Assembly (NCBI RefSeq): GCF_026151205.1
Contig: NC_087073.1
Coordinates: forward strand, 312,001 to 372,000
Direction of reading: 5' to 3'
DNA length: 60,000 nucleotides
Source of the DNA: Bolinopsis microptera
Taxonomy: Eukaryota; Ctenophora; Tentaculata; Lobata; Bolinopsidae
Each line of letters begins with the position of its first letter. Position 1 is the stretch's first letter. The translations under genes were made by a program, and so were the position numbers. The notes under the pieces are model-generated. The model was given only the letters and a program-made list of their open reading frames with translations, was not told the DNA's origin and did no database searches. This document shows, piece by piece, positions 20,470 to 60,000 of the stretch.

Positions 20470-20703
20470 CTCAAATTATTTGTTATATAGTAGTGTTGAA
20501 AGTATTAAAACACATTTGTAAATAACTAGAATTGTGTAACTTTAAATTATTTCAGAATTATAACTATTGTGAATTCAATAAAATAATTATCACTTTTGTA
20601 TCCTTGTATCCTTGTATCCTTGTATCCTTGTATCCTTGTATCCTTGTATCCTTGTATCCTTGTATCCTTGTATCCTTGTATCCTTGTATCCTTGTATCCT
20701 CCT
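20470..20703 (+). mobile_element. LINE 3' end with (TATCCTTG)n tail
   Basis: Bases 20510-20600 match 24288-24372 closely (GTAAATAACTAGAATTGTG, then AACTATTGTG and AATAATTATCACTTTT). About 13 copies of the octamer TATCCTTG follow. Short tandem octamer tails are the typical 3' end of CR1-like LINEs. The orientation is opposite to the neighbouring full-length element, so it is a separate, heavily 5'-truncated insertion. Confidence 0.8.
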
Positions 20704-20792
20704 ATATACAAACATAATAACATGCTGTTGTATACTATGTCTTGCTGAAAACAGTATTATTCATTAATTTAAAATTGTTCACTAATTTAAGT

Positions 20793-23323
20793 ATGGAGAC
20801 ATGTGACTTTCCTGACTTTCCTGTCTATAGTACTGAGGGACTGTACTGTCCGATACCAGAATATACGTAAGTTGAGATTTTTGTACACTTTTTTATTTAT
20901 TTGTGAGGATAGCTGATTAGATACTGTACATAAAGTCAGTAAAGGTCGCCTAAGTCTGAGGACTTTGAATGTTTCCATCAAGCAGTTGTATGAATACAGA
21001 TTGTGGATGGAATAGATTCTATGATCCTTGAAAAGCGGGAGAGGCCGCGGCCGGGGGGTCGGGCCGGGGGGCAGGGAGATTCTATACCTACATTAAAAAT
21101 ACCTGCATTTCAGATCGAATTGGCTGGAGGTTGGTCTAATCTCCTTGTGTTTACTTGTTTGGGTCTCATTTTGCTGTTTGTGGTACTATGAAGGACCAGT
21201 TCCCAGATCGGCTTTTATTGTTAGATCATTAGTACCTATCTCAGTTATCTACGAGTTAACTCTTTTATGGAGCCAGAGCACAGGAAATGAAGCACTCTAT
21301 CACTATCAGTATGTGGTTTACATCGTGATACCGCTCTCATTGGTAATGCTGCGTTTTAATACTGATAAGGAAACAAACTCTCTTTTGTTACCATTGATAA
21401 TCGGTTTGTTTGCAGAGGCTATATTCTATACCCCCTTTGGTGCTTTTAGACAACGAGGAGGACAATATGGCAAGATGTGGAGATCAGGGTCTACTTTCTA
21501 TAGTTGTTGGTTACCACTATGTTATGCAATACTTTATGGAAACCTTACTTGTGTGGTTATTGTGTTCCTACCTATAAAATTTACTCAAGAGATACTTGAA
21601 GGGCTAAATTTGAACTACCTCACTACCAGTATTTCACCAGCCTTTTCTCTGTTACACAACATCTTAAGAGGATTTACTAATTTCTTTGCTATCCTTGGAT
21701 TGACCTATATTACCTTATTGTGTCATATTGGGTCTGTGATCTACTTTAGCTATCAAGGCAACAGTGGAGGAAGATTACCGGAAAATACGTAAGTCCTACA
21801 TTTAGAATCAAACTTTGTTTCCGTTAATTTATGCATCATGGGTGGCAGCGCATAGTGGCATGAAATAAACTCTATTATATAGCAAATAATTATAAACTTT
21901 GCTGATAAAACATTCTTCTCAGATTTAAGTCATTTAAGATAAGATGCAAATTAATCATCCAGAAATTCGATAATCTAAAAAGTTACATGATGAGTTGTGA
22001 ATATTCAGATTCAGATATTAAGAATTAAATATTAAGAAATAAAATGTAAAGCTCACAAAACGATTAAACGTTTTCTAAACATTTAAATGATATTTCAGGT
22101 CACATTATATTGAAGTTTCTGTTATATTCCTGAATCTGGTAATCTGGGGTATGTGGTTGGTATACAACTGTGAAGTAAAGCTTAAAAGAGCTGGAACACT
22201 GCTTTTAACTGATGCAACTGCCAACTATACCTCTACTGAACAAGTCACTGTTGAAAATATCGAGCAAGTGTTCAGATTTAATACACCATATAATTATGAA
22301 CTGGCAGCCATCAAACATATTAGTGTCTTCAGCTCACCATTAACTGCTCCGTTTAAAAGTTCCGCACCATATGTTCGCAGTTTTATGCAGCGACAATATC
22401 TACCTGTGGACTACCATGCATTTGTTGTGTTTGAAACAGATGGAATGTTTTGGGCTGTTGATAAGATGAAAGATGGGATATTTGTGAGTTGGAGTAAAAA
22501 TCTCGAATCTGCTGTATTTTACTTCCAGGATCATCTTCGTCCAAAACCTATCCACCTACTGGTTCAAGATGCATCAACTTCTTCACTTATTGACATGGTC
22601 CGCCGTTTAAAAAGCAAACTGGATTCGAATAAATACGATCTTGTGGACAGAAACTGCCAACATTTTTCAAAAGAAGTCTTTGATAAGTTTGCAATTGATA
22701 AAACATGGGACTTTACTTCTCCAACTGATTTGACAAGCCCTCTCAAACTGTTTAGCGACGGTGGATATCCTTTATTCTTATTTGTGTGGACCGTCTCTGT
22801 TTTGTGTGAGCTATTTTTTCTATACAGTGATGGTGCATTATATGAAACTTTTTATCACTATCAGTATGTTGTATACGCAGTACTAGTCACAATTGTCGTC
22901 TTGTTCGTTAATGATAGAGAAACGTTTTTGGGGGTGTTTGCTCTGAAATTGCTTAGCTTTCTTTTAATAGAATGCATACTTTGCACACCTCTGGGTACTT
23001 TCAGAAAAAGAGGAGGACAATATGCAAAGATGTGGAAATCAGCTTCCACCTTTAACACATTCTGGTTACCGATTTGTTATTTGATGGTTTATGGCATTCC
23101 TATCTTTACATTTTCTGCGGTATTGCCACTTATTTTAATAAGTACTGGCTTGTATATACACAAGAATCTGGATACACAAGAAACATCTCTCTTATCGCCT
23201 TCACTAAATGTTATTAAATGGATTTGTGATAAGAGTCTTACAGTCTGTGACAAGAGTCTTACAATCCCTTTTTATGTACTATATTATTTAGGTACAATGC
23301 TGTACTTCAGTTTGCAAAACTAG
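20793..23323 (+). CDS. multi-pass membrane protein with papain-like (LRAT/PPPDE-type) domain
   Basis: Three exons: 20793-20866, 21114-21788 and 22099-23323. Donors are TAC|GTAAGT at both introns and acceptors are TTTCAG. Both junctions split an ACN codon, and the lengths sum to exactly 657 codons plus stop. The protein has a short soluble start, a hydrophobic module of about six spans (exon 2), a soluble domain (about 270-475), and a second module. The soluble domain has H356 (DYHAFVVF) and C436 (DRNCQHFSKEVF), the H...NCxxF arrangement of circularly permuted papain-like folds such as LRAT and PPPDE. The two membrane modules are homologous: both contain YHYQYVVY, then TP(F/L)G(A/T)FR(Q/K)RGGQY(G/A)KMW. 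Acyl transfer or thioester/peptide hydrolysis at a membrane is plausible but not shown. Intron 1 holds a GC-rich patch (21036-21080). Confidence 0.75.
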
Positions 23324-23677
23324 ATCAAAGATGTGAACTGTTGAAAACTGTTGGGATTCCTTCCATTTGCCAATCTCTCTTTTACCTGTTACAGATATTA
23401 TGATCTATTATGTAAATGTAAATGAGTAACATCAGACTTCTTATCTAACGAACAATTAGTCGGAGGATTCTATCATTCAATGATGTTTCCAGATTAACTT
23501 TCATACCATATCTATTAGTCAATTAACTCATTTATTATAAATTCATTTGCTGTTGTTTTGATTCTGTTCACCCTGATCTTTAAGTCTATGATTATACTTA
23601 CACTGTATTCGATTCATAAAACTAAAATCGAATCTAGTAACGATCAAAACCTGCCCCATATTCTATTTCATTTTTTT
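23324..23677. other. 3' flank, no gene seen
   Basis: AT-rich sequence between the membrane-protein gene and a LINE fragment, presumably the 3' UTR and flank. No clear AATAAA was found near the stop codon. Confidence 0.4.
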
Positions 23678-24392
23678 TTCAAAATTTAACCAAACATATT
23701 CTCGCCAAAATTTAACCAAACATATTCTCGCCAAAACTAGAATTCTATAACTTAATTAAACATGATTTCGAACCAGAGGCATATCTACGAATTATCAAAA
23801 TACCTGATGTTCGAAAAAGTCTGACAAGGTTTCGTATCAGCTGCCACAACCTCTACATCGAAAGGGGCAGATACGAAACCCCCCTTGTACCAAGAGAAGA
23901 ACGTTGGTGCACCTACTGCTTTTTCAGCAAAGGGCTCAAGCCTATTGAGGACGAAAGTCACGTATTGATTGACTGTTTGCTCTACTCCTCAGTTAGGGAA
24001 AAATTCAATTTCCATCCCCAAAACATTACTGACCTAGTCGGTTTGCTCTCCAACAAAACTCTAGATCCTACCACACTCACTGCCACAGCAAGAGCAATCC
24101 ATTCAATTCTCTCTGTGAACGAAAATTATACAGCCTATTATAAGAGCCCAGATTTCCACTCAAATACTGGCAAGTGCATAATGCTATAGGACCTTAAAAT
24201 AAGATTGAACCATACAAACTCGATTTATCTATTTTTCTAAAACTAGCATTATATAACATTTATAAATTATCCCTACACAGTACACACTTGTAAATAATTA
24301 GAATTGTGTAACTTAAATTATTTCAGAATTACAACTATTGTGTACTCAATAAAGTAATTATCACTTTTATATCCTTGTATCCTTGTATCCTA
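23678..24392 (+). mobile_element. 5'-truncated LINE 3' end ending just before MRPL14
   Basis: Begins with a duplicated 28-base AATTTAACCAAACATATTCT unit (23681-23735). Coding sequence follows: LEFYNLIKHDFEPEAYL...RFRISCHNLYIERGRYETP...CTYCFFSKGLKPIEDESHVLIDCLLYSS, the Cys/His C-terminal region also present at 13553-14179. The 3' UTR (24200-24372) matches 20510-20600 and ends in three TATCCTTG-type octamers. The last octamer reads TATCCTAG and stops four bases before the MRPL14 ATG. Confidence 0.8.
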
Positions 24393-24396
24393 GGCG

Positions 24397-27300
24397 ATGG
24401 CATTGCAAGCAAGGTTACTCACTGGAAATATCTGTCAAACGTTTGCACCTTTGGTATGCACACGAGGAATGCTGAAACAGGCACGCCTCAACAAGCTATG
24501 TAACTTTACGGGACCTCAGGATCGAGATGACGATGGCTGGGTTAAAATAATCGGTTATTACGGTAAAGACACGACCCCTCATGTTGGAAATGTAGTCAAG
24601 GTAAGAGACACCACCCCTCATGTTGGAAATGTAGTCAAGGTAAGAGACACCACCCCTCATGTTGGAAATGTAGTCAAGGTAAGAGACACCACCCCTCATG
24701 TTGGAAATGTAGTCAAGGTAAGAGACACCACCCCTCATGTTGGAAATGTAGTCAAGGTAAGAGACACCACCCCTCATGTTGGAAATGTAGTCAAGGTAAG
24801 AGACACTACCCCTCATGTTGGAAATGTAGTCAAGGTAAGAGACACCACCCCTCATGTTGGCAATGTAGTCTAGGTAAGAGACACCACCCCTCATGTTGGA
24901 AATGTAGTCAAGGTAAGAGACACCACCCCTCATGTTGGAAATGTAGTCAAGGTAAGAGACACTACCCCTCATGTTGGAAATGTAGTCAAGGTAAGAGACA
25001 CGACCCCTCATGTTGGAAATGTAGTGAAGGTAAGAGACACTACCCTTCATGTTGGAAATGTAGTGAAGGTAAGAGACACTACCCCTCATGTTGGAAATGT
25101 AGTCAAGGTAAGAGACACGACCCCTCATGTTGGAAATGTAGTCAAGGTAAGAGACACTACCCCTCATGTTGGAAATGTAGTCAAGGTAAGAGACACCACC
25201 CCTCATGTTGGAAATGTAGTCAAGGTAAGAGACATCACCCCTCATGTCGGAAATGTAGTCAAGGTAAGAGACACCACCCCTCATGTTGGAAATGTAGTCA
25301 AGGTAAGAGACATCACCCCTCATGTTGGAAATGTAGTCAAGGTAAGAGACACCACCCCTCATGTTGGAAATGTAGTCAAGGTAAGAGACACCACCCCTCA
25401 TGTTGGAAATGTAGTCAAGGTAAGAGACACCACCCCTCATGTTGGAAATGTAGTCAAGGTAAGAGACACCACCCCTCATGTTGGAAATGTAGTCAAGGTA
25501 AGACACCACCCCTCATGTCGGAAATGTAGTCAAGGTAAGAGACACTACCCCTCATGTTGGAAATGTAATCAAGGTAAGAGACACCACCCCTCATGTTGGA
25601 AATGTAGTCAAGGTAAGAGACACCACCCCTCATGTTGGAAATGTAGTCAAGGTAAGAGACACCACCCCTCATGTTGGCAATGTAGTCTAGGTAAGAGACA
25701 CCACCCCTCATGTTGGAAATGTAGTCAAGGTAAGAGACACCACCCCTCATGTTGGAAATGTAGTCAAGGTAAGAGACACTACCCCTCATGTTGGAAATGT
25801 AGTCAAGGTAAGAGACACGACCCCTCATGTTGGAAATGTAGTGAAGGTAAGAGACACTACCCTTCATGTTGGAAATGTAGTGAAGGTAAGAGACACTACC
25901 CCTCATGTTGGAAATGTAGTCAAGGTAAGAGACACGACCCCTCATGTTGGAAATGTAGTCAAGGTAAGAGACACTACCCCTCATGTTGGAAATGTAGTCA
26001 AGGTAAGAGACACCACCCCTCATGTTGGAAATGTAGTCAAGGTAAGACACCACCCCTCATGTTGGAAATGTAGTCAAGGTAAGAGACACTACCCCTCATG
26101 TTGGAAATGTAGTCAAGGTAAGAGACACCACCCCTCATGTTGGAAATGTAATCAAGGTAAGAGACACCACCCCTCATGTTGGAAATGTAGTCAAGGTAAG
26201 AGACACCACCCCTCATGTTGGAAATGTAGTCAAGGTAAGAGACACCACCCCTCATGTTGGCAATGTAGTCTAGGTAAGAGACACCACCCCTCATGTTGGA
26301 AATGTAGTCAAGGTAAGAGACACCACCCCTCATGTTGGAAATGTAGTCAAGGTAAGAGACACTACCCCTCATGTTGGAAATGTAGTCAAGGTAAGAGACA
26401 CGACCCCTCATGTTGGAAATGTAGTGAAGGTAAGAGACACTACCCTTCATGTTGGAAATGTAGTGAAGGTAAGAGACACTACCCCTCATGTTGGAAATGT
26501 AGTCAAGGTAAGAGACACTACCCCTCATGTTGGAAATGTAGTCAAGGTAAGAGACACCACCCCTCATGTTGGAAATGTAGTCAAGGTAAGAGACACCACC
26601 CCTCATGTTGGAAATGTAGTCAAGGTAAGAGACATCACCCCTCATGTCGGAAATGTAGTCAAGGTAAGAGACACCACCCCTCATGTTGGAAATGTAGTCA
26701 AGGTAAGAGACATCACCCCTCATGTTGGAAATGTAGTCAAGGTAAGAGACACCACCCCTCATGTTGGAAATGTAGTCAAGGTAAGAGACACCACCCCTCA
26801 TGTTGGAAATGTAGTCAAGGTAAGAGACACCACCCCTCATGTTGGAAATGTAGTCAAGGTAAGAGACACCACCCCTCATGTTGGAAATGTAGTCAAGGTA
26901 AGAGACACCACCCCTCATGTTGGAAATGTAGTCAAGGTAAGAGACACCACCCCTCATGTTGGAAATGTAGTCAAGGTAAGACACCACCCCTCATGTCGGA
27001 AATGTAGTCAAGGTAAGAGACACTACCCCTCATGTTGGAAATGTAATCAAGGTAAGAGACACCACCCCTCATGTTGGAAATGTAGTCAAGGTAAGAGACA
27101 CCACCCCTCATGTTGGAAATGTAGTCAAGGTAAGAGACACTACCCCTCATGTTGGAAATGTAGTCAAGGTAAGAGTGAAGAGTATTTTTATACTGTAAGG
27201 AACGATGATTTGTGTAAATAACCACAATCACAATCAGGCCTTGATTTGTTGATTGTATATTGAGCCTCGGATATTAATTTCTTATATTTCAGTCTTGAAA

Positions 27301-27643
27301 ATGAAGACATTGATATGTATAGCCCATTTAAGCCTAATTAGCCCCCATTCAGTAGACCTATATGTTTAGGTGCTAGATCCTTTAAATCCTTAATCTTTAC
27401 AATTTGCACTGTGAAATAATAACTTGTGTTCAGGTAACATATAAAGGCCAGATGTATAAAGCAGTGATAACAGGATTAGTGCGTGACAGAAGAGATTGTC
27501 CTCGTTTTGACACAAACAACTGTGTTTTTATCAACGACAAACACGAGCCTTTGGGAACAAGGATAAGCGGCCCTGTTTCCTTAAAACTGAGAAGATATGG
27601 AAAATACAACAAACTATTATCATTATGTACTGAGTTTTACTGA
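24397..27643 (+). CDS. MRPL14: mitochondrial ribosomal protein L14 (uL14m)
   Basis: Two exons: 24397-24600 (68 codons) and 27434-27643 (69 codons plus stop), joined in phase 0 to give 137 aa, close to the usual animal length of about 145. The first 40 residues are basic and hydroxylated without acids, like a mitochondrial presequence (MALQARLLTGNICQTF). The mature part matches uL14: HVGNVVKV, YKGQMYKAVITG, PRFDTNNCVFIND, PLGTRISGPV, KYNKLLSLCTEF. uL14m sits in the large mitoribosomal subunit at the subunit interface. The donor is CAAG|GTAAGA at 24601 and the acceptor GTTCAG at 27433. The intron is nearly all a 39-bp minisatellite that repeats the exon end and donor. A LINE tail ends four bases before the ATG. 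Confidence 0.87.
24601..27168 (+). repeat. 39-bp minisatellite, 66 copies of an exon end plus splice donor
   Basis: The unit is GTAAGAG followed by ACACCACCCCTCATG, TTGGAAATGTAGTCAAG. The last 32 bases copy the 3' end of MRPL14 exon 1 and the first 7 copy the start of the intron. The count is exact: 63 units of 39 bp and 3 of 37 bp (starting at 25498, 26042 and 26976) span 2568 bp, arranged 23-1-13-1-23-1-4. The equal 23-unit blocks show segmental duplication inside the array. Every unit inspected keeps AG|GTAAGA. Three units end in CTAG instead of CAAG, the first at 24871-24873. Open frames on both strands are a by-product of a 39-bp unit. Confidence 0.95.
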
Positions 27644-28052
27644 AGCATTTTGTTAAATAATGTTGGAATGTCTTTGTAAATAGCCGGTTTGTTATAAGGT
27701 TAACTGTGGTTGCCCTTTTAAATTTGTTATCTTTTATTTAAAGGTATTGCACTTATCAACTTGTTTGTGAGGAGATTTTTAAGTGATGTTATCCAATACA
27801 TTTATATAATATATATTTGATGAGTTTTCCTAGTCCGTTCAGTTTCATTTGGGTGATAAAGATAACATCAAAAGTGTAATGAATAAGTTTTCCTAGCGCT
27901 ATCGACATTGTCATATTCTATGTCGAAAGCAAAGTAAACTTTGCGCGCACGTATTTTCGTGGCGCCAAAATTTATTCAAACTTGTTTTTTCTGATCCAAC
28001 ACAAATATTTTTACCCGTTAAAGGGAGTTTTAACTTCATATCTTTATTGCAG
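27644..28052. other. intergenic, MRPL14 3' flank / CDC20 upstream
   Basis: A short gap between two plus-strand genes. It probably holds the MRPL14 3' UTR and the CDC20 promoter or first intron. A CTTTATTGCAG acceptor ends at 28052, five bases before the CDC20 ATG, so a non-coding first exon probably lies upstream in this gap. Confidence 0.4.
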
Positions 28053-28057
28053 ATAGC

Positions 28058-28642
28058 ATGTCGAAGCAGTGCGATTTGAAGCTACACGAACCAGTTTGTT
28101 CGAGCAGAGTGGTTCCGAGATGGCAACGGAAAGAAAACGAAAAATCAAGTCGACCAACTTCTAAATCCAACTCGAACAATGCATCCTTTTCAAGCCAGAG
28201 TAATGTTTCCAGCACATTCGGCGAGTCCTTTTCTGGACCTGTTGAATCCAGGAAGACTCCAAGTAAACCTCCTTCACTGACTCTAAACATGCCATACAAG
28301 ACAACAAACCGCGATGGCACCCCCAAGAAAAAGGTCAGTTCGTCGCTGAAAAATCAAATCAAAGTTGGGACCCCCAAGAAAATGTCCAAGACTCGAGACG
28401 GAAAGAGATCCGCTCACACCACGCCTAGTTGTGACAGATTTATCCCCCCTAGAAGTGGGAACAACTTTGAGAATGCTGGTTTTGAACTGTTGAACGATGA
28501 AGATGAATCCAAAGATTCTCCCACAACTAGACGGTATAAAGATGGTATGAAACAAAACCTGAATATTGGGCAGCCCAAGATTCTGAATATGAAGAATAAG
28601 GCACCTGCTCCAGCTATGAATCTACTAAACTCTCAATCAAAG
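28058..28642 (+). CDS. CDC20: CDC20/Fizzy N-terminal coding exon
   Basis: An exon of 195 codons ending in phase 0 at CAAAG|GTAAGG. CDC20 activates the anaphase-promoting complex and is bound by the spindle checkpoint. Visible features: VPRWQRKENE near residue 20, combining the conserved RWQRK block with a KEN box; Ser/Lys-rich disorder; TPSCDRFIPPRSG, the C-box that contacts the APC/C; and QPKILNMKNKAPAPA, the conserved block before the WD40 propeller. The WD40 repeats (about 300 residues) should follow in later exons, but none was recognised in the remaining 31 kb. The gene may have a very long intron, or the exon may be stranded. Confidence 0.82.
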
Positions 28643-32767: not shown

Positions 32768-35050
<2,283 letters not shown>

Positions 35051-44453: not shown

Positions 44454-44820
44454 ACGAATTTCATGCGTAATGTAAAAGACAAATATATTAATTATATATA
44501 TATTGTAGTATGCGAGGATGGTTCGGAGTTCACAGATTGCGCCTGCAAGTACAAGTGTAAACAGACACCCAGATAGTGCACCTGCAAGTGTAAACAGACA
44601 CCCAGATAGGCAGTCACCCTGAAAAGCGCCCAGCAGACTCAGAAACTGAGCTGATAGCGCTCCGTTAACGTTTCCCTAAGAACTGTGTTAGAAAAGAGGA
44701 GTCTTACTAATGTCTAATATTATTATTCAAATATAAATAAATAAATAATTCTCTAATTAAATATAAAGGTGGCGGGTTACGGGCAATAATCGGTGTATTT
44801 ATGTCTAATGTTCGTAGAAT
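44454..44820. other. 5' leader of ORF1 and short duplication
   Basis: Contains a tandem duplication of about 30 bp (GTAAACAGACACCCAGATAG at about 44557 and 44590). No gene. It probably includes the 5' UTR of the LINE. Confidence 0.45.
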
Positions 44821-46902
44821 TGAGTAATATATAGTATAGTAGTATAGTAGTATATTGAGTAATATATAGTATAGTAGTATAGTAGTATATTGAGTAATAA
44901 ATAGTATAGTAGTATAGTAGTATATTGAGTAATATATAGTATAGTAGTATAGTAGTATATTGAGTAATATATAGTATAGTAGTATAGTAGTATATTGAGT
45001 AATATATAGTATAGTAGTATAGTAGTATATTGAGTAATATATAGTATAGTAGTATAGTAGTATATTGAGTAATATATAGTATAGTAGTATAGTAGTATAT
45101 TGAGTAATATATAGTATAGTAGTATAGTAGTATATTGAGTAATATATAGTATAGTAGTATAGTAGTATATTGAGTAATATACAGTATAGTAGTATAGTAG
45201 TATATTGAGTAATATATAGTATAGTAGTATAGTAGTATATTGAGTAATATATAGTATAGTAGTATAGTAGTATATTGAGTGATATATAGTATAGTAGTAT
45301 AGTAGTATATTGAGTAATATATAGTATAGTAGTATAGTAGTATATTGAGTAATATATAGTATAGTAGTATAGTAGTATATTGAGTAATATATAGTATAGT
45401 AGTATAGTAGTATATTGAGTAATATATAGAGCACTGTATTATATTGAGTAATATATAGTATAGTAGTATAGTAGTATATTGAGTAATATATAGTATAGTA
45501 GTATAGTAGTATATTGAGTAATATATAGTATAGTAGTATAGTAGTATATTGAGTAATATATAGAGCACTGTATTATATTGAGTAATATATAGTATAGTAG
45601 TATAGTAGTATATTGAGTAATATACAGTATAGTAGTATAGTAGTATATTGAGTAATATATAGTATAGTAGTATAGTAGTATATTGAGTAATATATAGTAT
45701 AGTAGTATAGTAGTATATTGAGTAATATATAGTATAGTAGTATAGTAGTATATTGAGTAATATATAGTATAGTAGTATAGTAGTATATTGAGTAATATAC
45801 AGTATAGAAGTATAGTAGTATATTGAGTAATATATAGTATAGTAGTATAGTAGTATATTGAGTAATATATAGTATAGTAGTATAGTAGTATATTGAGTAA
45901 TATATAGTATAGTAGTATAGTAGTATATTGAGTAATATACAGTATAGAAGTATAGTAGTATATTGAGTAATATATAGTATAGTAGTATAGTAGTATATTG
46001 AGTAATATATAGTATAGTAGTATAGTAGTATATTGAGTAATATATAGTATAGTAGTATAGTAGTATATTGAGTAATATATAGTATAGTAGTATAGTAGTA
46101 TATTGAGTAATATATAGTATAGTAGTATAGTAGTATATTGAGTAATATATAGTATAGTAGTATAGTAGTATATTGAGTAATATATAGTATAGTAGTATAG
46201 TAGTATATTGAGTAATATATAGTATAGTAGTATAGTAGTATATTGAGTAATATATAGTATAGTAGTATAGTAGTATATTGAGTAATATATAGTATAGTAG
46301 TATAGTAGTATATTGAGTAATATATAGTATAGTAGTATAGTAGTATATTGAGTAATATATAGTATAGTAGTATAGTAGTATATTGAGTAATATATAGTAT
46401 AGTAGTATAGTAGTATATTGAGTAATATATAGTATAGTAGTATAGTAGTATATTGAGTAATATATAGTATAGTAGTATAGTAGTATATTGAGTAATATAT
46501 AGTATAGTAGTATAGTAGTATATTGAGTAATATATAGTATAGTAGTATAGTAGTATATTGAGTAATATATAGTATAGTAGTATAGTAGTATATTGAGTAA
46601 TATATAGTATAGTAGTATAGTAGTATATTGAGTAATATATAGTATAGTAGTATAGTAGTATATTGAGTAATATATAGTATAGTAGTATAGTAGTATATTG
46701 AGTAATATATAGTATAGTAGTATAGTAGTATATTGAGTAATATATAGTATAGTAGTATAGTAGTATATTGAGTAATATATAGTATAGTAGTATAGTAGTA
46801 TATTGAGTAATATATAGTATAGTAGTATAGTAGTATATTGAGTAATATATAGTATAGTAGTATAGTAGTATATTGAGTAATATATAGAACACTGTATTAT
46901 AT
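44821..46902 (+). repeat. 35-bp AT-rich minisatellite, 60 copies
   Basis: The unit is TGAGTAATATATAGTATAGT plus AGTATAGTAGTATAT. The spacing gives 57 units of 35 bp and three of 29 bp; the short ones (starting 45416, 45550 and 46874) carry AGCACTG or AACACTG in place of the AGTATAG block. The minus strand has no stops in any frame because none occurs in the unit, giving spurious Tyr/Ile/Leu open frames. Confidence 0.95.
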
Positions 46903-52590: not shown

Positions 52591-55500
52591 CTATGTTGCA
52601 TAAGTAGATATACGTAACGAGGCATAATTCATCTAGCTTGCATTATGTAGATATACGTAACGAGACATAATTCATCTCGCTTACATTATGTAGATATACG
52701 TAACGAGGCATAATTCATCTCGCTTGCATTATGTAGATATACGTAACGAGGCATAATTCATCTCGCTTGCATCATGTAGATATACGTAACGAGGCATAAT
52801 TCATCTCGCTTGCATTATGTAGATATACGTAACGAGGCATAATTCATCTCGCTTACATTATGTAGATATACGTAACGAGGCATAATTCATCTAGCTTGCA
52901 TTAAGTAGATATACGTAACGAGGCATAATTCATCTCGCTTACATTATGTAGATATACGTAACGAGGCATAATTCATCTCGCTTGCATTATGTAGATATAC
53001 GTAACGAGGCATAATTCATCTAGCTTGCATTATGTAGATATACGTAACGAGGCATAATTCATCTCGCTTGCATTATGTAGATATACGTAACGAGGCATAA
53101 TTCATCTCGCTTGCATTATGTAGATATACGTAACGAGGCATAATTCATCTCGCTTGCATTATGTAGATATACGTAACGAGGCATAATTCATCTCGCTTGC
53201 ATTATGTAGATATACGTAACGAGGCATAATTCATCTCCCTTGCATTATGTAGATATACGTAACGAGGCATAATTCATCTCGCTTGCATTATGTAGATATA
53301 CGTAACGAGGCATAATTCATCTCGCTTGCATTATGTAGATATACGTAACGAGGTATAATTCATCTCGCTTGCATTATGTAGATATACGTAACGAGGCATA
53401 ATTCATCTCGCTTGCATTATGTAGATATACGTAACGAGGCATAATTCATCTCGCTTGCATTATGTAGATATACGTAACGAGGCATAATTCATCTCGCTTG
53501 CATTATGTAGATATACGTAACGAGGCATAATTCATCTCGCTTGCATTATGTAGATATACGTAACGAGGCATAATTCATCTCGCTTGCATTATGTAGATAT
53601 ACGTAACGAGGCATAATTCATCTCGCTTGCATTATGTAGATATACGTAACGAGGCATAATTCATCTCGCTTGCATTATGTAGATATACGTAACGAGGCAT
53701 AATTCATCTCGCTTGCATTATGTAGATATACGTAACGAGGCATAATTCATCTCGCTTGCATTATGTAGATATACGTAACGAGGCATAATTCATCTCGCTT
53801 GCATTATGTAGATATACGTAACGAGGCATACTTCATCTCGCTTGCATTATGTAGATATACGTAACGAGGCATAATTCATCTCGCTTGCATTATGTAGATA
53901 TACGTAACGAGGCATAATTCATCTCGCTTGCATTATGTAGATATACGTAACGAGGCATAATTCATCTCGCTTGCATTATGTAGATATACGTAATGAGGCA
54001 TAATATATCTCGCTTGCATTATGTAGATATACGTAACGAGGCATAATTCATCTCGCTTGCATTATGTAGATATACGTAACGAGGCATAATTCATCTCGCT
54101 TGCATTATGTAGATATACGTAACGAGGCATAATCCATCTCGCTTGCATTATGTAGATATACGTAACGAGGCATAATTCATCTCGCTTGCATTATGTAGAT
54201 ATACGTAACGAGGCATAATTCATCTCGCTTGCATTATGTAGATATACGTAACGAGGCATAATTCATCTCGCTTGCATTATGTAGATATACGTAACGAGGC
54301 ATAATTCATGTCGCTTGCATTATGTAGATATACGTAACGAGGCATAATTCATCTCGCTTGCATTATGTAGATATACGTAACGAGGCATAATTCATCTCGC
54401 TTGCATTATGTAGATATACGTAACGAGGCATAATTCATCTCGCTTGCATTATGTAGATATACGTAACGAGGCATAATATATCTCGCTTGCATTATGTAGA
54501 TATACGTAACGAGGCATAATTCATCTCGCTTGCATTATGTAGATATACGTAACGAGGCATAATTCATCTCGCTTGCATTATGTAGATATACGTAACGAGG
54601 CATAATTCATCCCGCTTGCATTATGTAGATATACGTAACGAGGCATAATTCATCTCGCTTGCATTATGTAGATATACGTAACGAGGCATAATTCATCTCG
54701 CTTGCATTATGTAGATAAACGTAACGAGGCATAATTCATGTCGCTTGCATTATGTAGATATACGTAACGAGGCATAATTCATCTCGCTTGCATTATGTAG
54801 ATATACGTAACGAGGCATAATTCATCTCGCTTGCATTATGTAGATATACGTAACGAGGCATAATATATCTCGCTTGCATTATGTAGATATACGTAACGAG
54901 GCATAATTCATCTCGCTTGCATTATGTAGATATACGTAACGAGGCATAATTCATCTCGCTTGCATTATGTAGATATACGTAACGAGGCATAATTCATCTC
55001 GCTTGCATTATGTAGATATACGCAACGAGGCATAATATATCTCGCTTGCATTATGTAGATATACGTAACGAGGCATAATTCATCTCGCTTGCATTATGTA
55101 GATATACGTAACGAGGCATAATTCATCTCGCTTGCATTATGTAGATATACGTAACGAGGCATAATTCATCTCGCTTGCATTATGTAGATATACGTAATGA
55201 GGCATAATTCATGTCGCTTGCATTATGTAGATATACGTAACGAGGCATAATTCATCTCGCTTGCATTATGTAGATATACGTAACGAGGCATAATATATCT
55301 CGCTTGCATTATGTAGATATACGTAACGAGGCATAATTCATCTCGCTTGCATTATGTAGATATACGTAACGAGGCATAATTCATCTCGCTTGCATTATGT
55401 AGATATACGTAACGAGGCATAATTCATCTCGCTTGCATTATGTAGATATACGTAACGAGGCATAATTCATGTCGCTTGCATTATGTAGATATACGTAACG

Positions 55501-56929
55501 AGGCATAATTCATCTCGCTTGCATTATGTAGATATACGTAACGAGGCATAATTCATCTCGCTTGCATTATGTAGATATACGTAACGAGGCATAATTCATC
55601 TCGCTTGCATTATGTAGATATACGTAACGAGGCATAATATATCTCGCTTGCATTATGTAGATATACGTAACGAGGCATAATTCATCTCGCTTGCATTATG
55701 TAGATATACGTAACGAGGCATAATTCATCTCGCTTGCATTATGTAGATATACGTAACGAGGCATAATTCATCTCGCTTGCATTATGTAGATATACGTAAC
55801 GAGGCATAATTCATCTAGCTTGCATTATGTAGATATACGTAACGAGGCATAATTCATCTCGCTTGCATTATGTAGATATACGTAACGAGGCATAATTCAT
55901 CTCCCTTGCATTATGTAGATATACGTAACGAGGCATAATTCATCTCGCTTGCATTATGTAGATATACGTAACGAGGCATAATTCATGTCGCTTGCATTAT
56001 GTAGATATACGTAACGAGGCATAATTCATCTCGCTTGCATTATGTAGATATACGTAACGAGGCATAATTCATCTCGCTTGCATTATGTAGATATACGTAA
56101 CGAGGCATAATTCATCTCGCTTGCATTATGTAGATATACGTAACGAGGCATAATTCATCTCGCTTGCATTATGTAGATATAGGTAACGAGGCATAATTCA
56201 TCTCGCTTGCATTATGTAGATATACGTAACGAGGCATAATTCATCTTGCTTGCATTATGTAGATATACGTAACGAGGCATAATTCATCTCGCTTGCATTA
56301 TGTAGATATACGTAACGAGGCATAATTCATCTCGCTTGCATCATGTAGATATACGTAACGAGGCATAATTCATCTCGCTTGCATTATATAGATATACGTA
56401 ACGAGGCATAATTCATCTCGCTTGCATTATGTAGATATACGTAACGAGGCATAATTCATCTCGCTTGCATTATGTAGATATACGTAACGAGGCATAATTC
56501 ATCTCCCTTGCATTATGTAGATATACGTAACGAGGCATAATTCATCTCGCTTGCATTATGTAGATATACGTAACGAGGCATAATTCATCTCGCTTGCATT
56601 ATGTAGATATAGGTAACGAGGCATAATTCATCTCGCTTGCATTATGTAGATATACGTAACGAGGCATAATTCATCTTGCTTGCATTATGTAGATATACGT
56701 AACGAGGCATAATTCATCTCGCTTGCATTATGTAGATATACGTAACGAGGCATAATTCATCTCGCTTGCATTATGTAGATATACGTAACGAGGAATAATT
56801 CATCTCGCTTGCATTATATAGATATACGTAACGAGGCATAATTCATCTCGCTTGCATTATGTAGATATACGTAACAAGGCATAATTCATCTCGCTTGCAT
56901 TATGTAGATATACGTAACGAGGCATAATT
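52591..56929 (+). repeat. 43-bp minisatellite/satellite, about 101 copies
   Basis: The unit is TAGATATACGTAACGAGGCA, TAATTCATCTCGCTTGCATTATG. The TAGATA word recurs from 52605 to 56905, exactly 100 times 43, so there is no net indel over 4.3 kb. Variants are point changes only (ATTCATC to ATATATC, CTCGCTT to CTAGCTT, CATCTC to CATGTC), some recurring at intervals, which indicates higher-order amplification. Confidence 0.97.
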
Positions 56930-57428
56930 AACATATAATATTTGTTGGGAGGTGCCATACCATTCTTGTCCAAAATTGGAGATTTCCAACGAAGTAAATG
57001 GCTACACCATGAATGTACATTGTATTATTATAGAACAACATTATACACTGTATATAAGCAAACATTGTAACTTAAAGTAAACTCTAATGCCATCTTGGGC
57101 ACTGCAAAAGCACTCATTTCACAATTCTTTTCATATCAATATTTCACCTTTGTAGGGATTGTACGCCCCTACGTGTATAATATCAATATTTCACCTTTGT
57201 AGGGATTGTACGCCCCTTCTTTTCATATCAATATTTCACCTTTGTAGGGATTGTACACCCCTACGTGTATCATATCAATATTTCACCTTCGTAGTGATGA
57301 CGTAGGGGAGTGAGTTTCGCAATACTAATACTGACGGTTCGGTTGGAAGAGGTGTAATATCAGACGTAGTGATGACGTAGTAATGACGTAGTGATGACGT
57401 AGAATACGTTATCTATTAAATGAGCTGC
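56930..57428 (+). repeat. short tandem repeats between two satellites
   Basis: Bases 57136-57295 hold four copies of about 45-55 bp of ATATCAATATTTCACCTTTG followed by TAGGGATTGTACGCCCC. Bases 57363-57402 hold three GTAGTGATGAC/GTAGTAATGAC units. Bases 56930-57120 are AT-rich with no gene seen. Confidence 0.85.
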
Positions 57429-60000
57429 AGCAGATTAGCTACACGTGATACAGCTACTGACACAGCATCTACACAGGATTTAACAGCAGATTAGCTACAC
57501 GTGATACAGCTACTGACACAGCATCTACACAGGATTTAACAGCAGATTAGCTACACGTGATACAGCTACTGACACAGCATCTACACAGGATTTAACAGCA
57601 GATTAGCTACACGTGATACAGCTACTGACACAGCATCTACACAGGATTTAACAGCAGATTAGCTACACGTGATACAGCTACTGACACAGCATCTACACAG
57701 GATTTAACAGCAGATTAGCTACACGTGATACAGCTACTGACACAGCATCTACACAGGATTTAACAGCAGATTAGCTACACGTGATACAGCTACTGACACA
57801 GCATCTACACAGGATTTAACAGCAGATTAGCTACACGTGATACAGCTACTGACACAGCATCTACACAGGATTTAACAGCAGATTAGCTACACGTGATACA
57901 GCTACTGACACAGCATCTACACAGGATTTAACAGCAGATTAGTTACACGTGATACAGCTACTGACACAGCATCTACACAGGATTTAACAGCAGATTAGCT
58001 ACACGTGATACAGCTACTGACACAGCATCTACACAGGATTTAACAGCAGATTAGCTACACGTGATACAGCTACTGACACAGTATCTACACAGGATTTAAC
58101 AGCAGATTAGCTAAACGTGATACAGCTACTGACACAGCATCTATACAGGATTTAACAGCAGATTAGCTACACGTGATACAGCTACTAAAACAGCATCTAC
58201 ACAGGATTTAACAGCAGATTAGCTACACGTGATACAGCTACTGACACAGCATCTACACAGGATTTAACAGCAGATTAGTTACAAGTGATACAGCTACTGA
58301 CACAGCATCTACACAGGATTTAACAGCAGATTAGCTACACGTGATACAGCTACTGACACAGCATCTACACAGGATTTAACAGTAGATTAGCTACACGTGA
58401 TACAGCTACTGACACAGCATCTACACAGGATTTAACAGCAGATTAGCTACACGTGATACAGCTACTGACACAGCATCTACACAGGATTTAACAGCAGATT
58501 AGCTACACGTGATACAGCTACTGACACAGCATCTACACAGGATTTAACAGCAGATTAGCTACACGTGATACAGCTACTGACACAGCATCTACACAGGATT
58601 TAACAGCAGATTAGCTACACGTGATACAGCTACTGACACAGCATCTACACAGGATTTAACAGCAGATTTGCTACACGTGATACAGCTACTGACACAGCAT
58701 CTACACAGGATTTAACAGCAGATTAGCTACTCGTGATACAGCTACTGACACAGCATCTACACAGGATTTAACAGCAGATTAGCTACACGTGATACAGCTA
58801 CTGACACAGCATCTACACAGGATTTAACAGCAGATCAGCTACACGTGATACAGCTACTGACACAGTATCTACACAGGATTTAACAGCAGATCAGCTACAC
58901 GTGATACAGCTACTGACACAGCATCTACACAGGATTTAACAGCAGATTAGCTACACGTGATACAGCTACTGACACAGCATCTACACAGGATTTAACAGCA
59001 GATTAGCTACATGTGATACAGCTACTGACACAGCATCTACACAGGATTTAACAGCAGATTAGCTACTCGTGATACAGCTACTGACACAGCATCTACACAG
59101 GATTTAACAGCAGATTAGCTACACGTGATACAGCTACTGACACAGCATCTACACAGGATTTAACAGCAGATCAGCTACACGTGATACAGCTACTGACACA
59201 GTATCTACACAGGATTTAACAGCAGATCAGCTACACGTGATACAGCTACTGACACAGCATCTACACAGGATTTAACAGCAGATTAGCTACACGTGATACA
59301 GCTACTGACACAGCATCTACACAGGATTTAACAGCAGATTAGCTACACGTGATACAGCTACTGACACAGCATCTACACAGGATTTAACAGCAGATTAGCT
59401 ACGCGTGATACAGCTACTGACACAGCATCTACACAGGATTTAACAGCAGATTAGCTACACGTGATACAGCTACTGACACAGCATCTACACAGGATTTAAC
59501 AGCAGATTAGCTACACGTGATACAGCTACTGACACAGCATCTACACAGGATTTAACAGCAGATTAGCTACACGTGATACAGCTACTGACACAGCATCTAC
59601 ACAGGATTTAACAGCAGATTAGCTACATGTGATACAGCTAGTGACACAGCATCTACACAGGATTTAACAGCAGATTAGCTACTCGTGATACAGCTACTGA
59701 CACAGCATCTACACAGGATTTAACAGCAGATTAGCTACACGTGATACAGCTACTGACACAGCATCTACACAGGATTTAACAGCAGATCAGCTACACGTGA
59801 TACAGCTACTGACACAGTATCTACACAGGATTTAACAGCAGATCAGCTACACGTGATACAGCTACTGACACAGCATCTACACAGGATTTAACAGCAGATT
59901 AGCTACACGTGATACAGCTACTGACACAGCATCTACACAGGATTTAACAGCAGATTAGCTACACGTGATACAGCTACTGACACAGCATCTACACAGGATT
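57429..60000 (+). repeat. 56-bp minisatellite, at least 46 copies, runs off the window
   Basis: The unit is CAGATTAGCTACACGTGATA, CAGCTACTGACACAGCATCT, ACACAGGATTTAACAG. The start word recurs from 57431 to 59951, exactly 45 times 56, with no net indel. Variants are point changes (TTAGCT to TCAGCT, CACGTGA to CTCGTGA, CAGCATC to CAGTATC) and recur as groups, e.g. at 58835-58900, 59169-59230 and 59787-59850. The unit contains CAC(G)TGATACAG and no long open frame. Confidence 0.97.

Follow-up and report, generated by a model that had tools for sequence, protein, structure and literature searches.

The window, a stretch of 60,000 nucleotides covering bases 312001-372000 of contig C2 (23.0 Mb, in a genome of 264.65 Mb and 232 contigs), carries two coding exons of MRPL14, the gene for the mitochondrial ribosomal protein uL14m, separated by an intron that is largely made up of a minisatellite (Table 1). 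Joined together, the two exons encode 137 residues, and residues 70-135 of this product match the Pfam family Ribosomal_L14 (PF00238, E=4.4e-10). The top matches in the PDB are mitochondrial uL14m, the first two having E=2.8e-13 and 4.3e-13 with residues 51-136 aligned, and judging from the entry names we take these chains to be the human protein. The alignment crosses the exon junction free of gaps (...HVGNVVK/VTYKGQ... against ...KVGDQILLAIKGQ..., the slash marking the junction), and splicing from the first donor, donor 1, therefore yields the ordinary protein. A preliminary description of this DNA had assigned the gene to MRPL14 and had ended exon 1 at that donor, and both assignments agree with these alignments. 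The boundary of exon 1 is a predicted one, placed by alignment, and the ATG at 24397 is a putative start codon that may lie in the transcript's first exon. TAG/GCGATGG lies ahead of the start codon in both of the MRPL14 copies described below, and TAG/GCG could alternatively be an acceptor. The unspliced open frame at 24394-24870 has no Pfam match.

Table 1. Coordinates of the MRPL14 features in the window and of the exons of the second copy on contig C2
Feature	Position	Strand	Description	Basis
First coding exon, MRPL14/uL14m	24397..24600	+	68 codons, ending ...VGNVVK; phase-0 boundary	Translation, ungapped human alignment, identical paralog protein
Exon-borne unit	24562..24600	+	Final 39 bp of exon 1; homologue of the array units; GGTAAA at start	TRF array start, sequence
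Donor 1 (GTAAGA)	24601..24606	+	Sole donor giving a protein colinear with human uL14m	Translation, alignment
Minisatellite	24601..27168	+	66 units, 63 of 39 bp and 3 of 37 bp, each an exon end with its donor	TRF, splitting at GTAAG
In-frame TAG	24871..24873	+	End of seventh unit; full-length protein impossible from donor 8 or any later donor	Translation
Last donor	27169..27174	+	Followed by unique intron (GTAAGAGTGAAG); 265 nt from acceptor	
Unique 3' part of intron	27175..27433	+	Ends in TTGTGTTCAG; largely common to the paralog	
Second coding exon, MRPL14	27434..27643	+	69 codons plus stop	Translation, Pfam, PDB alignment
Paralog exon 1	C2:56321-56118	inverted		Genome search
Paralog exon 2	C2:49529-49323	inverted		Genome search

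TRF reports the minisatellite as a single array at 24562-27175 with a period of 39, 67.2 copies and 96% matches, and splitting at GTAAG gives 66 units that fill their interval exactly (63 x 39 + 3 x 37 = 2568 bp). Read directly from the sequence, the 39-bp unit consists of the last 32 bases of exon 1 and the first 7 of the intron, with the intron part GTAAGAG joined to the exon part ACACGACC within each unit. This composition had been recognized in the preliminary description, to which the division into 39-bp and 37-bp units is an addition. The exon-borne copy and the intron units do not begin alike (GGTAAAGACAC compared with GGTAAGAGACAC). There are 67 consecutive donors, the exon's own at 24601 and 66 more up to 27169, the number of extra donors that had been counted before; all of them read AG/GTAAGA (here and below the slash marks the splice position), and as nine-mers 64 are AAG/GTAAGA and 3 are TAG/GTAAGA. 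In a 200-kb sample of the same genome, matches to the 8-mer [ACG]AGGTRAG have a background rate of 0.10 per kb on each strand, so that chance is excluded as a source of the 64 found in about 2.6 kb of the array. Given the TAG that ends the seventh unit, donors 1-7 would add 0-6 copies of a 13-residue repeat; translation agrees with this arithmetic and with the stop beyond the seventh donor, both of which had been put forward earlier. The 37-bp units (donors 25498, 26042 and 26976) shift the reading frame, and they lie past the stop. The acceptor that yields uL14m, ending at 27433, is outside the array, and the last donor at 27169 is probably where the intron started before the expansion.

A second MRPL14 gene lies inverted on the same contig (C2:56321-49323), about 280 kb away. 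A genome pattern search with a 33-base piece of the unit gave 36 forward and 105 reverse matches. Counts of this piece at the two loci are 36 for the window and 105 for the second locus, so all 141 genome matches are explained by these two arrays. Each MRPL14 exon likewise has two genome matches, the window copy and the paralog. The array of the paralog has 160 units, of which 138 are 39 bp and 22 are 37 bp long, and each of its 161 donors reads AAG/GTAAGA; over both copies (67 + 161), 228 of 228 donors are AG/GTAAGA. The 137-residue protein is identical in the two genes, which differ at 4 of 414 coding positions (24480, 24573, 27565 and 27568), all synonymous. Since the protein is the same and the only changes are synonymous, the comparison suggests that both copies have been under selection or are kept alike by gene conversion, with the qualification that four changes are few.

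Similarity between the two loci extends beyond the genes. The matching flanks span window positions 20510-27901 and are interrupted by insertions that differ between the copies. Over the upstream pieces that are in register, 3185 aligned columns contain 40 mismatches, a count that leaves out gap columns. The exon-1 piece has 3 mismatches in 213 columns, and the intron piece that directly follows the array has 1 in 98. There are 30 in 644 in the final matching piece, which comprises the rest of the intron, exon 2 and the 3' flank. Three other matches are out-of-register repeats or weak, with 356 columns at 90.7%, 350 at 96.0% and 244 at 73.4%, the one of 350 columns being the end of a LINE-like element. 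Outside 20510-27901, with 35 kb compared, there is one match of at least 60 bp among those listed (244 columns at 73%). Arrays of this type are hard to assemble, and the lengths of 66 and 160 units come from one assembly, but an assembly artefact is a most improbable source of either the second copy or the array lengths, considering that the matching segments are broken by different insertions in each copy, that similarity fades in this manner outside them, and that both copies are on one 23-Mb contig.

Relative to the window, the upstream flank of the paralog has two extra stretches, C2:61430-60702 and 59025-57901, whose break points overlap by 4 bases (window 21356-21359 and 23030-23033), as if they derived from transposons with 4-bp target duplications. 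The window copy has a fragment at 23716-24390, for which the label LINE is our own reading; it contains a 157-residue open frame with no Pfam match and ends in TTGTATCC repeats 6 bases ahead of the MRPL14 start codon. The paralog has other sequence at this site, and the 350-column piece, which has the same 3' end, is found elsewhere in its region at 96%.

The two copies agree in the left end of the array (TACGGTAAAGACAC...) and in its right end (GGTAAGAGTGAAGAG), and the array is therefore older than the gene duplication. A total of 26 unit types is present, 12 in the window copy and 17 in the paralog, and only 3 are common to both, which indicates fast turnover since the duplication. The longest run common to the two arrays is 6 units of the commonest type. 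Blocks have been copied inside the arrays, the best lags being 36 and 21 units in the window and 57 units in the paralog. A single tandem duplication of 39 bp, broken just past GGTAAA and GGTAAG, would account for the founding event. These two sequences, at 24562 and 24600, are alike and 38 bases apart, and the likeness of the exonic GGTAAA to the GGTAAG of the donor perhaps aided the duplication. Repeated unequal exchange or slippage would then have enlarged the array, to 66 units here and to 160 in the segmental duplicate. Site 24573 (ACG/ACT), one of two coding differences between the copies in exon 1, lies within the last 32 bases of the exon. Both the ACG and the ACT forms occur among the array units, for which reason the exon edge and the array may exchange sequence.

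Against the commonest unit, the arrays have 17 distinct substitutions (5 synonymous, 11 non-synonymous and 1 nonsense), a count that leaves out the 2-bp deletion of the 37-bp units, compared with 30 synonymous, 84 non-synonymous and 3 nonsense substitutions that are possible. These proportions (5:11:1 versus 30:84:3) give no sign of selection on the array substitutions at the protein level. None of the 14 substituted positions, however, falls in the seven-base donor core (hypergeometric P=0.03, post hoc), and 1 of 14 falls within -3 to +6 (P=0.08). Avoidance of the donor core runs weakly against an array of purely idle, neutral decoys.

Tandem repeats at exon-intron borders have been named mirages in amphioxus Adh3, where the units are 10-72 bp, and are also described in the amphioxus globins BflGb6 and BflGb9, two haplotypes of BflGb6 having 6 and 3 units, each 150-160 bp long (PMC3087553). 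Mirages are further reported in TnC and PGBD5 (PMC3902484), and according to these accounts normal splicing is undisturbed by the amphioxus mirages (PMC3087553, PMC3902484). The MRPL14 unit similarly spans the exon-intron boundary of a uL14m gene, with 32 exon and 7 intron bases, and the copies carry splice signals at 228 of 228 donors. The MRPL14 arrays differ from those of amphioxus in having 66 and 160 units, mostly of 39 bp and each followed by a strong donor, and in belonging to a mitoribosomal gene with two paralogs. In human IFI6 (6-16, G1P3), as in MRPL14, the repeat units carry donors and several are offered to one acceptor; the IFI6 unit is said to be 12 bp, in about 26 copies and in an in-frame arrangement. 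MRPL14 has 66 donors beyond the exon's own, with donors 1-7 open in frame (1-51 in the paralog), and has the larger copy number. Its donors are predicted, whereas in IFI6 two repeat units downstream are reported to serve as donors (PMC4526556, citing Turri 1995).

Variable minisatellites are also described at exon-intron borders of recently duplicated human genes, where the variable repeats average four 30-bp units and boundary repeats are linked to new introns (PMC2812944); unlike them, MRPL14 has no evident new intron. AGGT intron gain, as outlined for potato RdRp (PMC4974935), resembles the MRPL14 case in that a tandem duplication crosses an intron boundary. The model was rejected here, as the acceptor that yields uL14m is located outside the array and the intron seems to have been pre-existing. 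Repeats in earthworm metallothionein genes are intronic arrays that are not reported to span a donor (PMC12783039). No paper linking MRPL14 to a minisatellite was found in the literature searched, which is thin in subscription journals. The kind of array thus is known; its novelty seems to lie in the gene, in the scale, with 67 and 161 strong donors, and in the pair of paralogs.

It is probable that the array is a mirage-type minisatellite which arose from tandem duplication across the exon-intron boundary, is almost wholly intronic, and leaves donor 1 as the site that is mainly used. Most or all of the mRNA would come from donor 1, since this site ends the real exon, is synthesized first, and has the exon-near position that tends to win among equal donors in long introns; the conserved protein would favour it as well. 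The remaining 66 donors would be silent decoys, with donors 2-7 contributing at most a small in-frame ladder. Since the donors have virtually the same sequence, position must decide between them. Calculated from the coordinates, the intron that starts at donor 1 is 2,833 nt in the window copy and 6,588 nt in the paralog, and that from the last donor is 265 nt and 392 nt, respectively, so rules that depend on intron length and on intron proximity predict opposite ends of the array. For near-equal 5' splice sites, the upstream one is reported to be preferred if introns are long and the downstream one if the intron is under about 250 nt (PMC9225289). Before matching for strength, the downstream donor was in the majority in all four classes of that study, and the upstream preference was derived from internal exons with an upstream acceptor (PMC9225289). 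For MRPL14 exon 1 such an upstream acceptor is only a possibility, which weakens the case for donor 1; the use of downstream repeats in human IFI6 also counts against it. The last donor would be predicted by the classical rule of Reed and Maniatis, recounted in PMC9225289, that the donor nearer the intron is preferred, and its 265-nt intron is near the 250-nt border.

If the last donor or scattered donors were used, most transcripts of the window copy would carry the TAG and be destroyed, and that copy would be weakened or dead. Preference for intron-proximal sites in short introns (as reported in PMC9225289) and the short distance between last donor and acceptor are consistent with such an outcome, as is the LINE-like element that abuts the start codon in the window copy. 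We nevertheless consider it very unlikely, given that an identical protein with synonymous-only changes argues for selection, an argument tempered by the small number of changes and by possible gene conversion.

The preliminary description had also suggested that the array might generate length variants of the ribosomal protein. According to this reading the array is a working source of variants, with donors 2-7, or 2-51 in the paralog, adding VRDTTPHVGNVVK to uL14m. The unit length of 39 is a multiple of 3, and the open run takes in the first 6 units of the window copy and the first 50 of the paralog; in addition, use of the two downstream units in IFI6 is said to give three mRNAs (PMC4526556, citing Turri 1995), and 66% of boundary-repeat intron modifications are reported to have support from repeat-keeping transcripts as well (PMC2812944). 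An insertion from a later donor would, however, place 13 residues per 39-bp unit within the aligned, conserved core of uL14m, where the human protein has none and the product of donor 1 aligns ungapped. No coding constraint is evident in the neutral-like array substitutions, and between the copies the length of the open run varies about eightfold (6 versus 50 whole units) with no pattern. Length variants are therefore unlikely and have gained no positive evidence, while the other half of the earlier interpretation, that the array offers a test of donor choice, has been strengthened by the copy with 161 donors.

The U1 snRNP protects transcripts from premature polyadenylation. Conceivably, the array has been retained since its 67 and 161 tandem, intact U1-matching sites, placed in an early MRPL14 intron, form a landing strip for this particle, together with a weak ladder from donors 2-7 adding VRDTTPHVGNVVK. 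Such a strip would shield the MRPL14 transcript from premature polyadenylation or raise its output. The intactness of all 228 donors and the post hoc result (P=0.03) that none of the 14 variable positions falls in the seven-base donor core are hints in this direction, but the proposal appears highly doubtful. Hiding of the decoys by RNA structure was considered and rejected, as neither the exon end nor a stretch of three units folds more stably than shuffles (z of 0.75 and 1.65).

Choice among equal donors is usually studied in minigenes with few sites. With donor 1 as the probable main site, the MRPL14 pair is a natural test of choice among 67 and 161 near-identical donors for one acceptor, in which the donors are spaced in steps of 39 nt, sometimes 37 nt, and the product must presumably stay constant. 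First-donor rules, such as exon definition and order of synthesis, and the last-donor rule of intron proximity make opposite and easily read predictions. The pair also demonstrates that the exon edge of a housekeeping gene can bear a fast-changing minisatellite while the protein stays identical.

Tandem arrays were sampled in 20 random 10-kb stretches (of 100 drawn) from contigs C1-C3, 200 kb in all, taking units of at least 12 bp in at least 4 copies with overlaps removed. The sample held 24 arrays totalling 15,765 bp (7.9%), and with tandem arrays so abundant an array on an exon edge is no great surprise. AGGTRAG was present in the consensus unit of 0 of the 24 arrays in these 200 kb, whether any preceding base was allowed or T was excluded; in the window the corresponding figures are 2 of 10 (MRPL14 and an 18-bp array) and 1 of 10. 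Donor-bearing arrays are thus not the rule in this genome, as far as a small sample goes, and the idea that they are a general habit of the genome was rejected on the 0 of 24 count from only 200 kb.

The window has no Rfam match at gathering scores. Downstream of MRPL14 and outside the duplicated segment, an open frame at 28058-28642 has no Pfam match and weakly resembles the N-terminal part of CDC20 (E=0.0076 to CDC20 chains). The 18-bp array, at 34820-34965, has 8 copies bearing a donor-like AATAG/GTGAGA on the minus strand, and no gene was evident on reading 1 kb around it. The term subtelomeric is not claimed for the region: tandem repeats were listed at both ends of C2 and the first 600 bases were read at one, and there are minisatellites and no clear telomere repeat. 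Three further long minisatellites are present in the window, at 44819-46887 (35 bp x 59), 52596-56929 (43 bp x 101) and 57428-60000 (56 bp x 46), the last of which extends to the window end.
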